Shown in pieces: positions 16,335-23,046 of a DNA stretch of 64,000 nucleotides. The notes beneath the pieces were generated by a model. The model was not told where the DNA came from. It worked only from the letters and a program-made list of their open reading frames with translations, and did no database searches. A program made the position numbers and the translations under genes. Positions within the stretch are counted from its first letter, which is position 1. Every line of letters starts with the position of its first letter. The stretch lies in the NCBI GenBank assembly GCA_014896315.1, contig JADBKP010000005.1:62001-126000 (forward strand), written 5' to 3'. This DNA comes from Limnochordales bacterium. Its GTDB lineage: Bacteria; Bacillota; Limnochordia; Limnochordales; DUMU01.

Positions 16335-17628
16335 AATCTACACCGTCGAACCGTTATCGGCCCGATTTGCTGATTTTCCCGTGCCTGCTGCTGGCCAGGC
16401 GATACTTTCGGTCAGCCAGTTGACGGCGATGATTCGCGAAAGGATCGAAGGGTATCCCCCCTTTCGGGCGCTGTGGGTGCGCGGGGAGATCTCCAATTTC
16501 AAGCAACACACCTCCGGTCACCTTTACTTCACTCTCAAAGACCGGGGAGCGATCTTGCGTTGCGTCATGTTCCGGTCGCAGGCGAGCAGGTTAAACTTTG
16601 TACCGAAAAACGGCCTGGAAGTGATTGCCGCAGGGTCCCTCAAAGTCTACGAGAGCGGCGGCGAGTACGAACTGGTGGCGGAGGCGCTGCTGCCGGCCGG
16701 TATCGGCCAGTGGTACATCCGGTTCGAAGAGCTGAAAGCTAAGCTGGCGGCCGAAGGGTTGTTTGCCGCGGAGCGGAAACGACCGCTACCGTACTTCCCC
16801 CGGCGGGTCGGTGTGGTCACTTCTCCGACAGGGGCGGCTATTCGGGATATTATCAAGGTGCTCAGCCGCAGGGCGGCCGGGGTTGAGGTCTTGGTATCTC
16901 CGGCACTGGTACAGGGGGAAGAGGCGCCGGCCTCCATCATCAAGGCACTGGAACGGCTGATTCCCTGGCGACCCGATGTGGTGATCGTGGGACGAGGTGG
17001 CGGCTCCCTCGAGGATCTGCAGGCCTTCAACGATGAGAAGCTGGCGCGGGCGATCGCCGCCTACCCCTTCCCGGTAGTCTCGGCGGTCGGTCACGAAATC
17101 GACTTCACCATTGCCGATTTTGTGGCCGATCAGCGGGCGCCTACTCCGTCAGCCGCGGCGGAGATGGTCGTTCCCGACCGGCGGGAGCTGCTTGAGCGGG
17201 TCGCGGGGTTGGGCCGCCGGCTGCAGCTCGCGGTGCGCCGAAACTATGAGAAACGTCGACTTACGTTGGATGGGCTCTTGGCCCGCCCGTGGTTTCGGCG
17301 GCCGCTGGACATGGTTGATCTGCGACGCCGCCGGCTGGACGAGCTCTGGCCGCGAGCCGAAGTCTGTATGGAAGCCCGGATAGCGGGCGGCCGCCAGCGG
17401 CTGGCTGTGCTTGCCGGGCGGCTTGAGTCCCTCAACCCGCTGGCAGTTTTAAGCAGGGGGTACGCGGTTTGCCAGCGTCCGGATGGCCGCCTTGTCAGCC
17501 GGGCGGCGCAAGTAGTTCCCGGAGAAGAACTGAGGATCTTGCTGGTGGATGGTGAGGTCGGCTGCCGGGCCGAGAGCGTCTCCCTTAAGACAAGGGAAGG
17601 GGGTTATCCGTTTGCCGTCGGAGAATGA
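16327..17628 (+). CDS. xseA: Exodeoxyribonuclease VII large subunit
   Basis: Large subunit of the ATP-independent single-strand exonuclease ExoVII. It has an N-terminal OB domain (LWVRGEISNFKQHTSGHLYF), the catalytic domain with GVVTSPTGAAIRDI, VIVGRGGGSLEDL and VSAVGHEIDFTIADFVAD, a coiled-coil region, and the closing LSRGYAVCQ segment. The 433-residue length is normal. GTG 16327 overlaps the preceding stop by 8 bp; xseB begins inside the 3' end. Confidence 0.96.
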   Translation: MSEIYTVEPLSARFADFPVPAAGQAILSVSQLTAMIRERIEGYPPFRALWVRGEISNFKQHTSGHLYFTLKDRGAILRCVMFRSQASRLNFVPKNGLEVIAAGSLKVYESGGEYELVAEALLPAGIGQWYIRFEELKAKLAAEGLFAAERKRPLPYFPRRVGVVTSPTGAAIRDIIKVLSRRAAGVEVLVSPALVQGEEAPASIIKALERLIPWRPDVVIVGRGGGSLEDLQAFNDEKLARAIAAYPFPVVSAVGHEIDFTIADFVADQRAPTPSAAAEMVVPDRRELLERVAGLGRRLQLAVRRNYEKRRLTLDGLLARPWFRRPLDMVDLRRRRLDELWPRAEVCMEARIAGGRQRLAVLAGRLESLNPLAVLSRGYAVCQRPDGRLVSRAAQVVPGEELRILLVDGEVGCRAESVSLKTREGGYPFAVGE

Positions 17629-17923
17629 GGTGCAGCCTTCGTTTGAAGAGTCGCTGGCCAGGTTGGAAAAGATTGTTGAACAACTGGAGACGGGCGAGAA
17701 CTCGCTGGCCGAATCGCTGCAGCTATTTGAAGAGGGTATCAAGCTCGTTCGCCTGTGCAATGAGAGGTTGGCAGCGGCAGAGTTGCGCATCCGGCAGTTA
17801 ACCGAGATGCCTGACGGTACTGTGAGCGCCGTTCCCTTTGCGGTCACGCCGGAGTTGGGCGTTCAGAATCGAGAAGCTTCCACAAGCAGTAAGGATGGAG
17901 GCGGAGAAGGCGTCGATGAGTAG
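17612..17923 (+). CDS. xseB: Exodeoxyribonuclease VII small subunit
   Basis: The small helical subunit of ExoVII. Family signature SFEESLARLEKIVEQLETGE followed by LAESLQLFEEGIKLVRLCNERL. The C-terminal tail of about 35 residues is longer than usual. The start is TTG 17612 (AAGGGAAGGGGG upstream) or GTG 17630; both overlap xseA or directly follow it. The 3' end overlaps ispA. Confidence 0.93.
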   Translation: MPSENEVQPSFEESLARLEKIVEQLETGENSLAESLQLFEEGIKLVRLCNERLAAAELRIRQLTEMPDGTVSAVPFAVTPELGVQNREASTSSKDGGGEGVDE

Positions 17924-18848
17924 GTTGACCGGTCCGGAAGAGCTGCCCGGCTGGGAGGAATTGCGGAAGCTGGTGGACGCGGCGGTGGCGGCGGCGGTGT
18001 GCGCCGAGAACTTCCCTCCCCGCCTCTGGCAGTCGATGCTGTATACGGCAGGTTCGGGAGGGAAGCGACTGCGGGGAAGCCTGGTCCTGGCCAGTTGTGC
18101 GGTGGCAGGAGGAGACTGGCGACGGGCGCTGCCGGCAGCCGTGGCGGTCGAGTTGATCCACGCCTACTCCCTCATCCACGATGATCTCCCGTTAATGGAC
18201 GATGACGACTTTCGCCGCGGTCGGCCTACCAACCATAAGGTTTTCGGACCGGCGGTGGCTCTCCTGGCTGGTGATGCCCTGCAAGCGTATGCTTTTGAGG
18301 TACTGGTCGATCAGGCAAACGGTGCGCCCCCCGAACTGCAGCTGGCCTGGGTGCGGGAGCTGAGCGCGGCGGCGGGGCCCGGGGGGCTTGTGGGCGGGCA
18401 GCTTGTCGACTGGGAGGTAGAAGAGGGGCGCTGGCAACAGCTGGCGGAGGGAGAGCTGGCGGCAGCGGGAATGCTGGAGTATGTCCACCGGCACAAGACG
18501 GCAGCCCTGATCCGGGCGGCGGTACGCATGGGTGGGCTTGCCGCCGGGTTGCGGGAGGAAGACGACGTTCTGGTAAGGCTTGGGGTGTACGGGGCCGAGC
18601 TTGGCCTGGCCTTCCAGATAACAGACGACCTGCTCGACGAGGTGGGCGATCCGGAGGCGACGGGCAAGGAGGTAGGCCGGGACAGGCGGCGGGGAAAGCT
18701 TACGTACGTGGCCCTCTATGGGGTGCCGGTAGCACAAGCGGCGGCCCGCCGGGCAGTTTGGCGGGCGCAGGAGGCCCTAACGCCTTTGGGGGAGCGGGGG
18801 TTACCGCTGGTTCAACTGGCAGAGCAGGTTCTGGCACGTACCCGCTAG
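17916..18848 (+). CDS. ispA: Polyprenyl synthetase (farnesyl/geranylgeranyl diphosphate synthase)
   Basis: Chain-elongating isoprenyl diphosphate synthase. Both aspartate-rich motifs are visible: the first as HDDLPLMDDDDFRRGRPT, the second as FQITDDLLDEVGD, with GGKRLRG near the N-terminus binding IPP. Length is 310 residues from ATG 17916, which has GGAGAAGG upstream and overlaps the xseB stop. It completes the xseA-xseB-ispA cluster. The exact chain length of the product cannot be read from sequence alone. Confidence 0.94.
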   Translation: MSRLTGPEELPGWEELRKLVDAAVAAAVCAENFPPRLWQSMLYTAGSGGKRLRGSLVLASCAVAGGDWRRALPAAVAVELIHAYSLIHDDLPLMDDDDFRRGRPTNHKVFGPAVALLAGDALQAYAFEVLVDQANGAPPELQLAWVRELSAAAGPGGLVGGQLVDWEVEEGRWQQLAEGELAAAGMLEYVHRHKTAALIRAAVRMGGLAAGLREEDDVLVRLGVYGAELGLAFQITDDLLDEVGDPEATGKEVGRDRRRGKLTYVALYGVPVAQAAARRAVWRAQEALTPLGERGLPLVQLAEQVLARTR

Positions 18849-18849
18849 G

Positions 18850-18878
18850 TTGACCGGGGCGGGCAGCCATGGTATAGT
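18850..18878 (+). promoter_or_regulatory. Sigma-A promoter of the OLE-like RNA
   Basis: TTGACC at 18850-18855 and TATAGT at 18873-18878 are separated by 17 bases. The -35 starts right at the end of ispA. The predicted start near 18885 coincides with a perfect 7-bp hairpin (CACAATT/AATTGTG at 18887-18905), as expected for a structured RNA with its own promoter. Confidence 0.8.
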
Positions 18879-18884
18879 AGCACG

Positions 18885-19563
18885 TGCACAATTATCGCAA
18901 TTGTGGCTGATTCAGTATCCTAGTGCGGCAACGCACCGGCGAAGGCGGCCCTAAAAAGCCGTCGCTGGCATACCAATGAAGTCCCTGGCAGTGGCTGGAG
19001 ACGCCCAGTCTCGGGTCGCTGCTGGGGGTTAAGGAGCGGGGGCGATCCGCAACGGCATGCGGGCGTTGACCCCCTCTCCGCGGAGACCCTACGCCGTGGT
19101 CGGGGGCGGGCTTGTCCTGCCTGCTGCCGGCTATGGCCTGGGAATGAACCTGCATCCGGTCGGCGAAAACCGGCTGGGTGCAGTGTAGCCTGCCTTGCGT
19201 GGCCCGGTGGGAAAGAGGTTCCGAGGCTTGTCCCGCAGGCCGGGGACAAGATGCTCGCTGCTCGGCAAAACCGGGTTGCTAAAGAGGCTAGCCGGTGCGG
19301 GGCTGTTTGAGGAAAACTCCTAGGCTGACCCGAATGGGGGTAGGCCGGGATTGCGGTGTGGTCTAAGTGGTAATCCAGCCGCGCTCTGGGCGACCGGGCG
19401 CAGCAGCCGGAAAGGGGAAACCGCCCTGCCGGCGACGGCGGGGAGGGCTGTTGGGAAAACCTGCTGGACCTCAAGCCACAATGTTTACCGGTCCTACTAT
19501 CAGCCAGTCTCGCCCCGCGAGGGGGCGCATTCTTGCACCCGCAAAGCTGCGGGTGCTTTTTTC
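18885..19563 (+). ncRNA. ole: OLE RNA (ornate large extremophilic RNA) candidate
   Basis: An 840-bp gap between ispA and the next gene contains no credible protein. It is bounded by a sigma-A promoter and a perfect intrinsic terminator, giving a transcript of about 680 nt. It holds many GC-rich inverted repeats, for example a 7-bp stem at 18887-18905 and GTGCG-GCAA-CGCAC, a GNRA tetraloop hairpin, at 18923-18936. The order ispA, long RNA, small membrane protein, dxs is the published context of OLE RNA, a roughly 600-nt RNA of anaerobic and extremophilic Firmicutes that binds the membrane protein OapA. Assignment rests on context, size and structure; no covariance search was run. Confidence 0.85.
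19535..19562 (+). terminator. Intrinsic terminator of the OLE-like RNA
   Basis: GCACCCGCA and TGCGGGTGC form a perfect 9-bp stem with a four-base loop (AAGC), followed by six T residues. It defines the 3' end of the long RNA and separates it from oapA. Confidence 0.93.
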
Positions 19564-19617
19564 ACCAGGCATACCTGCCAGGCTTGCACAGTAACAGGAT
19601 CGGCCCGGATCAGACCA

Positions 19618-19640
19618 GATCGGATCGGATCGGATCGGAT
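19618..19640 (+). repeat. Short tandem repeat of GATCG
   Basis: Four complete copies of GATCG plus a partial fifth lie between the RNA terminator and oapA, with further GGATC-like units just upstream (19598-19612). The tract sits about 50 bases before the oapA start. It could be slippage-prone; no function can be read from it. Confidence 0.85.
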
Positions 19641-19687
19641 TGAGCTGTTCTCTTTTTGCTGCCTGGGAGTGAGGAAGGGTACCGGAA

Positions 19688-20269
19688 GTGGTTAAACGTT
19701 TTCTGGTAGTGGGAGGACTGGTGTTTCTGGCCTCGCTGCTTCTCACAGGGTTCACCCAGGAGGCAGCTGCAGCGGTGCCGCCCTTGCCCGCCGCTTCGCT
19801 TCTGATTCTGGTGATCGCCAGTGGCATCTTCTTCGATGTCATAGGGGTGGCGGCTGCTGCCGCTTCCGAAAAAGATCTGCACGCTCTGGCGGCGGACCGG
19901 GTCCCGGGTGCGGTTCAGGCGATCCGGCTGGTACGGAGGCGGGACCTGGTAGCGACGGTGACTTGCGATATGATCGGTGATATCCTGGGAACCATAGGAG
20001 GAGCTATGGGGGCTACTCTCGCGGCCCAGTTATCCCTGCCGGGGGTCCTGCAGGAGACGGTGGTTCGCTCGGCCTTAATCGTTGCGGCCACGGCGGGGCT
20101 TACGGTGGGCGGAAAGGCCGGGTTTAAGCAAGTAGCCTTACGTTATAATCAGGATATTGTGTTGCTACTGGGCAGAGTTCTCGCCCTGGTGGAAAGTGTG
20201 GTCGGCCGGTCGCTCTTGAATGATAGAAGGGCCGGTCGCCGGATCCGGCGACGAGCGAGGAGGCGGTAG
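19688..20269 (+). CDS. oapA: OLE-associated membrane protein OapA (DUF21/CNNM-like)
   Basis: A 193-residue membrane protein with four or five hydrophobic segments. After an N-terminal signal-anchor-like helix come a helix with GIFFDVIGVAAAAAS, the soluble stretch LHALAADRVPGAVQAIRLVRR, and helices starting DLVATVTCDMIGDILG and VVRSALIVAATAGLTV. The pattern recalls the DUF21 domain of CNNM/CorC magnesium transporters. OapA binds OLE RNA at the membrane in Bacillus halodurans. The C-terminus is strongly basic (RRAGRRIRRRARRR), fitting RNA contact. GTG 19688 follows GAGGAAGGG. The dxs gene starts one base after its stop. Confidence 0.87.
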   Translation: MVKRFLVVGGLVFLASLLLTGFTQEAAAAVPPLPAASLLILVIASGIFFDVIGVAAAAASEKDLHALAADRVPGAVQAIRLVRRRDLVATVTCDMIGDILGTIGGAMGATLAAQLSLPGVLQETVVRSALIVAATAGLTVGGKAGFKQVALRYNQDIVLLLGRVLALVESVVGRSLLNDRRAGRRIRRRARRR

Positions 20270-20270
20270 G

Positions 20271-22208
20271 GTGCGGCTCCTTGATCAGATTGATTCCCCG
20301 GGGGACCTGCGCCGGCTTTCCCGGACGCAGCTCCAGCAGCTCGCACAGGAGCTGCGCGAGGAGATCATCAACATTGTCTCTACCAACGGGGGACACCTTG
20401 CGCCCAACCTTGGTGTCATCGAACTGACGCTGGCGCTGCATACCGAGCTGGATACCCCCCGAGACAAGCTGATCTGGGATGTGGGACACCAGACCTATGC
20501 CCACAAGTTGCTTACCGGAAGGAAAGATCGGTTCGCCACCCTCCGGAAACAGGGAGGGCTTAGCGGGTATCCGCGCCGGGATGAAAGTCCGTACGATCCC
20601 TTTGGCGCGGGGCACGCGAGCACCTCTATCTCGGCCGCGCTCGGCCTGGCGGTGGCCAGGGATCAACTGGGGGAGAAATACCGGGTCGTGGCGGTGATAG
20701 GCGATGGTGCCCTCACCGGTGGCATGGCCTACGAGGCCCTCAACCATGCCGGACAACTGCGGACGCAGCTCCTTGTCGTTCTCAACGACAATGAGATGTC
20801 CATCTCCCGGAACGTCGGGGCAATAGCCCACTATCTAAACCGGTTGCGCCTCGAGCCCGGCTACAACCGGGCCAAGACAGACCTCAAGGCCCTGGCCGAA
20901 CGTCTGCCGGGCGGCCGGCGGGCATTTGACCTTGCCTCGCGGGTTAAGGACTCGGTCAAGTACATGCTGCTGCCGGGCGCTCTCTTCGAAGAGCTCGGCT
21001 TCGCCTACTTCGGGCCGCTGGACGGCCACAACATCGAGGAGTTGCGGCAGGCGCTCCGCTATGTGCTCAAGCTTAATGAACCCGTGTTGCTGCACGTGAT
21101 CACCCAGAAAGGTAAGGGATACCGTCCCGCCGAGACAGATCCCGCCCGTTATCATGGAACGGCGGCTTTTGACCGTTCAACCGGTCGGGCGACCGCCCAA
21201 CCCGCCGGGCCTTCCTACTCGGCAGTCTTTGCCGACACTCTTATCCAGCTGGCTGCGGAGGACTCCCGCATTGTCGCCATCACGGCCGCCATGCCGGAGG
21301 GCACAGGCCTGGACCGCTTCGCCAGGGTCTATCCCAACCGCTTCTTTGACGTGGGTATCGCTGAACAGCATGCAGTCACCTTTGCTGCCGGTCTGGCTGC
21401 GGGCGGCCTGCGACCGGTGGTGGCCATTTACTCTACCTTTCTTCAGCGAGCCTACGACCAGATCATTCATGATGTCTGTCTGCAGCGTTTGCCGGTTGTC
21501 TTTGCCATCGACCGCGCCGGGCTGGTCGGAGAGGACGGTGCTACCCACCAGGGGGTATTCGATCTGGCCTTCCTGCGGGCGATACCAAATCTCATCCTGG
21601 CTGCTCCCCGCGATGCCGAAGAGCTGCGCCAGCTCCTGCGCACCGCCTTGGAAGCCGACGGGCCCTTTGCTATCCGCTACCCACGGGGAACGGCGCTCTG
21701 GCGCAGGGGCGAGGTGCCTTCCCCGGAAGTCCTTGCCCAGCCGATCGAGCCGCTGGTGGTGGGTCGCGGTGAGGTCCTGGCCGAGGGTTCACGGGTGGCT
21801 CTGGTCGCATACGGAGCGATGGTGGAGCCGGCATGGCAAGCGGCAGCGTTGCTGCGGCAGACAGGAGTTACGGCCACGGTGGTCAATGCTCGTTTTCTCA
21901 AACCGCTAGACGAGACCCTGCTCCTGCGGATTGGTCGCGCCCATTCCCTTGTGGTCACCATCGAGGAAGGAGTACTAGCCGGAGGGTTTGGCAGTGCCGT
22001 CCTGGAGTTGTTCTCCAGTCACGGCCTGCAGGTGCCGGTATTGCGGCTCGGAGTGCCGGACCGTTTTATCGAACACGCCTCTCAGGCTGAGCAACGGGAG
22101 GCGCTGGGATTGAGTGCCACCGCCATCGCAGCGGCGGTACGGGAGCAGCTGGCAGCGGGCGATACTGCGGAGATCCTGCCGCCGCGATTGGTGTCGGTCG
22201 TGCACTGA
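20271..22208 (+). CDS. dxs: 1-deoxy-D-xylulose-5-phosphate synthase
   Basis: Thiamine-diphosphate enzyme starting the MEP isoprenoid pathway from pyruvate and glyceraldehyde-3-phosphate. Visible blocks are [33 protein letters not shown], the ThDP motif [15 protein letters not shown] through [17 protein letters not shown]-type [12 protein letters not shown], and the transketolase-like centre [22 protein letters not shown] 20271 has GAGGAGG upstream. The 645-residue length is normal. It shares a cluster with ispA, linking both genes to isoprenoid synthesis. Confidence 0.97.
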
Positions 22209-22215
22209 GACGGCG

Positions 22216-23046
22216 ATGAACGCGGAGAAGAAACGCCTGGACGTGGCTTTAGTGGAAGCCGGGTTGCTCCCGAGCCGCGAGGCGGCCCGGAGGCTGATTC
22301 TGGCGGGTCAGGTGCGTGTGGACGGCCGGATCGTGGACAAGCCGGGGACGAAAGTCGCTCCGGACAGCCACCTGGAGGTAGTCGGGCCGACCAATCCTTA
22401 TGTGAGCCGCGGCGGCCTGAAACTTGCGGCCGCCCTGGCCGCCTTCCCGGTGCAGGTCGCCGGGGCGGTGGCCCTTGACGTAGGCGCCTCTACCGGCGGT
22501 TTCACGGACTGCCTGTTGCAGCATGGAGCTCGCCTGGTTTACGCCGTTGATGTTGGCTGGGGCCAACTTGCCTGGAAGCTACGCCAGGACCCGCGGGTGC
22601 GGGTGCTTGAACGGACTAACATTCGCTACCTCAAGCCGGAGGCCCTTGGCGGCGAGAGACCGACGCTGGCCACCATCGATGTCAGTTTTATCTCCCTGCG
22701 GTTGGTTTTGCCTGCAGTTTACGGGCTGGTGTTGCCGGGAAGCGCCGTGATTCCCCTTATAAAGCCCCAGTTTGAGGCAGGACGAGGGCAAGTGGGGAAG
22801 AAAGGAGTAGTACGGGATCCGCAGGTGCATCGGGAGGTCCTGTTAAAAGTTGGGGACTTCGCCCGTGAGTCCGGCTTCCTGCTGCGTGGGCTGATCGCTT
22901 CGCCGATCTTGGGACCGGAAGGGAACCGGGAGTTTCTGGCCTGGTTCGAAACAGTGTCGCCCGCGGCTGAGTCCCCGGAGGGCGGCTTGACGCGGGAGGA
23001 GTGGTGTGAATTGACTGAGCGGGTGGTGGGTGAAGGTGGGGAGTAA
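22216..23046 (+). CDS. tlyA: TlyA family rRNA 2'-O-methyltransferase
   Basis: An N-terminal S4 RNA-binding domain ([30 protein letters not shown]) is followed by an FtsJ-like SAM methyltransferase domain ([18 protein letters not shown], then [13 protein letters not shown] and [10 protein letters not shown]). TlyA proteins 2'-O-methylate rRNA; some were named hemolysins. ATG 22216 has only a weak ribosome-binding site. The gene lies between dxs and nadK as in many Firmicutes and overlaps nadK by 17 bp. Confidence 0.94.

Follow-up and report, generated by a model that had tools for sequence, protein, structure and literature searches.

The OLE RNA gene of a Limnochordales bacterium joins a family-wide promoter to a lineage-specific terminator-like hairpin

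Among bacterial RNAs whose biochemical function is not known, the OLE RNA is one of the largest. In Halalkalibacterium halodurans, the OLE RNA (RF01071) is directly followed by oapA, and the excerpt of PMC9723947 that deals with this locus reports, citing Ko and Altman 2007, that ole possesses its own promoter inside a larger operon. An excerpt of PMC11332333 describes the 3' end of the H. halodurans RNA as processed. The locus described here, from a Limnochordales bacterium, shares with H. halodurans the RNA family, the position of oapA and a promoter proper to the RNA, and differs in that its 3' end could be set by an intrinsic terminator.

The window, by which we mean the whole 64-kb stretch of DNA that was analysed, carries a genuine OLE noncoding RNA gene at positions 18891–19519 of the + strand, on which the genes and elements of this locus given below are also located. 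The gene matches the full Rfam model RF01071 (1–616) with a covariance-model score of 403.7 bits, compared to a gathering threshold of 50 (E 4e-115). OLE was the sole Rfam family detected in the whole 64 kb, and one copy exists in the genome. The preceding gene, ispA (polyprenyl synthetase, 17916–18848; Pfam PF00348, E 8.6e-51), ends with a TAG stop codon at 18846–18848. Downstream are found oapA (19688–20269), an ORF with a GTG start assigned to the OLE-associated membrane protein A, and dxs (20271–22208; PF13292, E 6.8e-122). These genes belong to an operon-like run composed of xseA, xseB, ispA, the OLE RNA, oapA, dxs and a gene with an S4/FtsJ domain. The label xseA was given from position and the label oapA from position and literature, the similarity of the latter product to CNNM being weak (E 4e-4, below the cut-off). 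The window oapA is homologous to the gene present at that place in relatives, an oapA homologue following OLE in 132 of the 139 loci. The window OLE gene is of the ordinary full-length kind, in the usual order ispA-ole-oapA-dxs. Elsewhere in the genome, the gene for OapC (YbxF) was recognized as encoding an L7Ae-family protein (PDB YbxF, E 4e-14) between genes read as rpoC and rpsL. A KOW-like ORF between genes read as map and infA, with OapB as its sole PDB match (E 0.0087), is a candidate for OapB. With oapC and a candidate oapB found, this organism probably possesses the full OLE RNP.

Generic consensus scans of the 5.5 kb between positions 17000 and 22500 found one promoter-like site (0.7 expected) and one terminator-like site (3.9 expected). 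Both results were at chance level and the scans were rejected as proof; the loci of relatives were therefore collected, to let comparison decide. The 139 OLE loci, including that of the window, were oriented by two conserved OLE anchors. They constitute a non-random sample, as most were best-scoring matches and 60 were hand-picked for family diversity among the matches listed. The 60 held-out loci were chosen among the matches listed before their sequences were seen. Phage records gave no match.

The promoter elements noticed in the sequence-only reading, TTGACC and TATAGT separated by 17 nt, are present upstream of OLE. The -35 hexamer TTGACC (18850–18855) begins one nucleotide past the ispA stop codon and the -10 hexamer TATAGT covers 18873–18878. 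A TG located one base ahead of the latter, which that reading had not mentioned, makes it an extended -10 (18870–18878, with TGG at 18870–18872), and the predicted transcription start is at approximately 18884–18886. In a sister species of the window's genus, a perfect TTGACA-17-TATAAT is found at OLE. Three of the 139 loci (L049, L052 and L055) were dropped from the comparison as their upstream sequence was too short. A -10 with at least 5/6 matches was present within approximately 95 nt of the GYGCAGTAT anchor in 124 of the remaining 136 loci (39% in base shuffles), most commonly 26–30 nt ahead of the anchor. The combination of TGn with such a -10 was observed upstream of OLE in 113 of 136 loci, compared to 5.75% when the bases were shuffled and to 3 of 134 loci in a distal stretch, and in 83 of these 113 loci the best -35 started with TTG. 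The held-out loci behaved similarly, with a -10 of at least 5/6 in 56 of 60 and the additional TGn in 48 of 60. The existence of a promoter proper to OLE is strongly supported by this conservation, which makes the promoter, in evolutionary terms, a real feature of the whole family. The extended -10 is its most constant part. We propose that this promoter, of the sigma-A type and with an extended -10, would start the RNA approximately 20 nt ahead of the helix that closes the molecule.

This closing helix, 8 bp long in the window, is formed by the pairing of the two ends of the OLE RNA, TGGCTGAT at 18904–18911 on the 5' side with ATCAGCCA at 19499–19506 on the 3' side. The structure line of Rfam RF01071 leaves the corresponding positions unpaired. 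The helix covaries across loci: when each family was represented by a single locus (n=70), its mean length was 10.84 bp within the own locus compared to 7.27 bp with partners taken from other loci, a value as high as 10.84 bp being obtained in 0 of 300 permutations. One of the 139 loci (L052) was left out of this count. The 5'-3' closing helix marks the boundaries of the OLE RNA. Published OLE models may already hold this helix; their stem numbering starts before P3. A slight enrichment in T was visible beyond the helix, with a T content of 0.41 at 4–11 nt compared to about 0.28 further on, and T-run starts at offsets 4–7 standing at 0.09 compared to about 0.04. This signal was too weak to claim that the closing helix and a T run act together as a long-range terminator. 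Three loci (L023, L024 and L037) show a T7 run a few nucleotides past the helix, as if the helix could serve as a terminator stem.

The 9-bp stem followed by T6 that had been described behind OLE is also present, and occupies positions 19535–19562 (stem-loop 19535–19556, T6 19557–19562). Seven of its nine base pairs are GC, the loop is 4 nt long and the hairpin energy is -17.1 kcal/mol. The GC-rich stem, the short loop and the immediate U tract are those of intrinsic (Rho-independent) terminators. Unlike typical members of that class, the window hairpin lies within a conserved operon, where it separates a noncoding RNA from the gene of the protein that binds this RNA. It ranks third strongest among the 15 + strand candidates of the 64-kb window. 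When the gap was shuffled, a hairpin-T call of any strength was obtained in 290 of 5000 cases and one as strong as that of the window in 11 of 5000. These results support the terminator as a sequence feature, real in the lineage of the window.

Seven of the 139 loci (L008, L014, L018, L021, L037, L044 and L048), with no oapA in the fetched stretch, were dropped from the terminator comparison. One of them, L008, shows a strong hairpin with T5 behind OLE (-24.7 kcal/mol). Most of the 132 loci compared have a short gap between ole and oapA and no terminator. A terminator-like hairpin with a T tract was found in 17 of the 132 gaps. The reverse strand gave one such site in 132 gaps, and shuffles gave 1.17 per 132. 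The terminator-bearing gaps were distributed over 9 of 68 families, and 15 loci from 7 families reached -10 kcal/mol or better. In family f1, to which the window belongs, the terminator is present in the window and in L033; L032, from the same genus as the window, has a GC hairpin without T tract, so that conservation of the terminator is not strict, even among near relatives. In family f9, it exists in all seven loci, with an identical stem and varying loops. The terminator is thus a lineage feature, which probably arose several times, and is not general to OLE genes.

With 177 nt as measured in this analysis, the ole-oapA gap of the window is the second longest of the 132 (median 38). It had been stated that only a GATCG tandem tract lies between the terminator and oapA, which proved wrong. 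The interval is 125 nt long (19563–19687) and the tract, with a GGATC period and 8.8 copies, fills just 19597–19640. The rest includes GAGGAAGG, which resembles a ribosome-binding site, ahead of the oapA GTG at 19688. The core of the tract, GATCGGATCGGATCGG, was found nowhere else in the genome, and the tract is not in the corresponding gap of L032.

No terminator was found in the window between ispA and the OLE promoter, and upstream terminator-like sites exist in 6 of the 117 loci having an ispA-like gene upstream. Transcripts of ispA can therefore run into OLE, and operon read-in is possible. The same observation suits a scheme in which OLE would chiefly be processed from a long ispA-ole-oapA-dxs transcript, the promoter being minor and the hairpin a processing or stability element. 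The H. halodurans cluster gives a polycistronic RNA, and the 3'-end processing of OLE reported there in an excerpt of PMC11332333 points the same way. However, the OLE promoter is family-wide, and a pure processing hairpin would not need a clean T6 directly after a perfect GC-rich stem; we consider this scheme rather improbable. As to the claim that OLE is an independent transcript and does not derive by processing from an ispA-dxs operon, the separate start is supported, whereas independence from the operon is overstated, given the missing ispA-OLE terminator. The transcript should be termed "additional, separately started" and not "independent". The elements read from the letters were thus correctly called, the promoter being general and the terminator a lineage-specific variant, and the conclusion on operon independence was too strong.

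The downstream genes had been said to need readthrough or another start. Apart from that of OLE, no promoter-like site passed the scan of 17000–22500. By the rule of this analysis, a second promoter was also missing from each of the 17 gaps with a terminator. Of the two proposed sources of oapA and dxs, readthrough would therefore be the likelier. A candidate inside oapA (20122, GTTTAA-16-TATAAT) was rejected, with its poor -35 and its location within coding sequence. In L063 and L065, both of family f46, TATAAT directly follows the terminator; this arrangement fails the second-promoter rule and might represent a second oapA start, so that a start of oapA downstream of the terminator may still occur in general.

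The terminator is located no more than approximately 30 nt from the closing helix, and the gene of the OLE-binding protein comes directly after. This proximity would fit a conditional, attenuator-like hairpin, with OLE folding or a bound protein deciding whether the polymerase enters oapA. Yet the predicted fold of 19495–19570 contains no competing pairing, as a hairpin at 19511–19527 and the terminator coexist in it (MFE -33, z -3.3). In the absence of a competing fold, conditional attenuation was rejected, and we judge it very unlikely.

The best explanation, which we hold with good confidence, is that of an ordinary OLE gene with its family-wide promoter, to which an intrinsic terminator would have been added between OLE and oapA in the window lineage. 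Most transcripts derived from the promoter would then end near 19562, and the terminator would most likely yield an OLE-only transcript of approximately 680 nt. The oapA and dxs genes would be expressed via readthrough and via transcripts entering from ispA. As most relatives are without terminator, OLE would in those species either be split off from oapA through RNA processing or remain on one RNA with it.

The 5-, 6- and 7-mers present in the 44 nt past the OLE 3' anchor were counted, with one of the 139 loci left out as its flank was too short. TACATA was the top hexamer by z-score, with an occurrence in 26 of 70 families compared to 2.9 in shuffles. It was found in 43 of 138 loci (L002, L031, L077, L106, L231 and L247 are examples among all loci examined), whereas each of its 18 single-base variants was found in at most 4 of the 138. 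In eleven further stretches of 44 nt, the first 300 nt upstream and the last at oapA, it occurred in 0–3 of 135–138 loci. The location of the hexamer was steady relative to the closing helix, at -2 to +14 nt from its end in 40 of 43 cases, and its distance to the oapA start varied from 19 to 116 nt. The motif therefore belongs to the end of OLE and not to the start of oapA. In the held-out loci, TACATA was present in 20 of 60, corresponding to 12 of 26 families and to 2 of the 8 families new to the analysis; its variants were found at most 3 times and the control stretches gave 1–2. The motif was also present in 8 of 44 additional new loci, which came mostly from four families. Its presence is clade-dependent. 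Inside the OLE body, avoidance of TACATA was weak and was not retained (1 seen compared to 5.6 expected), 12 of the 60 anagrams, TACATA included, showing 0–1 occurrences; the held-out OLE bodies contained it once in 34,237 nt.

In excerpts of the corresponding articles, B. subtilis EndoA is reported to cleave at U^ACAUA (PMC11780869) and UACAUA is given as the cleavage site of a Symbiobacterium MazF (PMC10893535). The hexamer that ranks first immediately past OLE, and which many relatives carry there, is identical to this site, and cleavage of OLE transcripts at it is hypothetical. With each family represented by one genome, a MazF-family protein was found in 63 of 70. Its presence did not track the motif: PF02452 (E at most 1e-30) was detected in 23 of 26 motif-bearing genomes compared to 36 of 44 lacking it (p 0.52). 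Among the matches listed, no paper was found that links OLE RNA in this way to MazF or EndoA; one staphylococcal phage paper contains "OLE RNA" and "MazF" once each, and OLE RNA stands alongside EndoA or UACAUA in none of the 12 papers listed out of 52. In the window, neither TACATA nor TACAT occurs between 19507 and 19687, so that the 3' end there is without a site of the EndoA/MazF type. The motif was not the opposite of the terminator either, with 3 of 15 strong-terminator loci compared to 38 of 117 others (Fisher p 0.39), and the two are therefore not mutually exclusive. The motif is observed, as are its location, its specificity and its recurrence in the held-out loci; the enzyme and the cut are inferred. 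We tentatively propose, as a reading that may well prove mistaken, that in many Bacillota EndoA, the chromosomal MazF-type enzyme, cuts OLE from the ole-oapA transcript at a UACAUA located up to approximately 14 nt past the closing helix, and that the window lineage swapped this cut for an intrinsic terminator. The pattern suggests two routes to the OLE 3' end, cleavage in many lineages and termination in the window.

The covarying closing helix, which is not in the Rfam model, offers a natural boundary for OLE constructs. The two ends of the RNA appear to be governed differently: a promoter shared across the family sets the 5' end, and the 3' end differs by lineage, with a terminator in a minority that includes the window and probably cleavage elsewhere. 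The UACAUA motif points to one specific, deletable enzyme, which makes the origin of the OLE 3' end directly testable. If the proposed cleavage is true, the supply of OLE and the oapA mRNA would be tied to a stress-linked toxin-antitoxin RNase.
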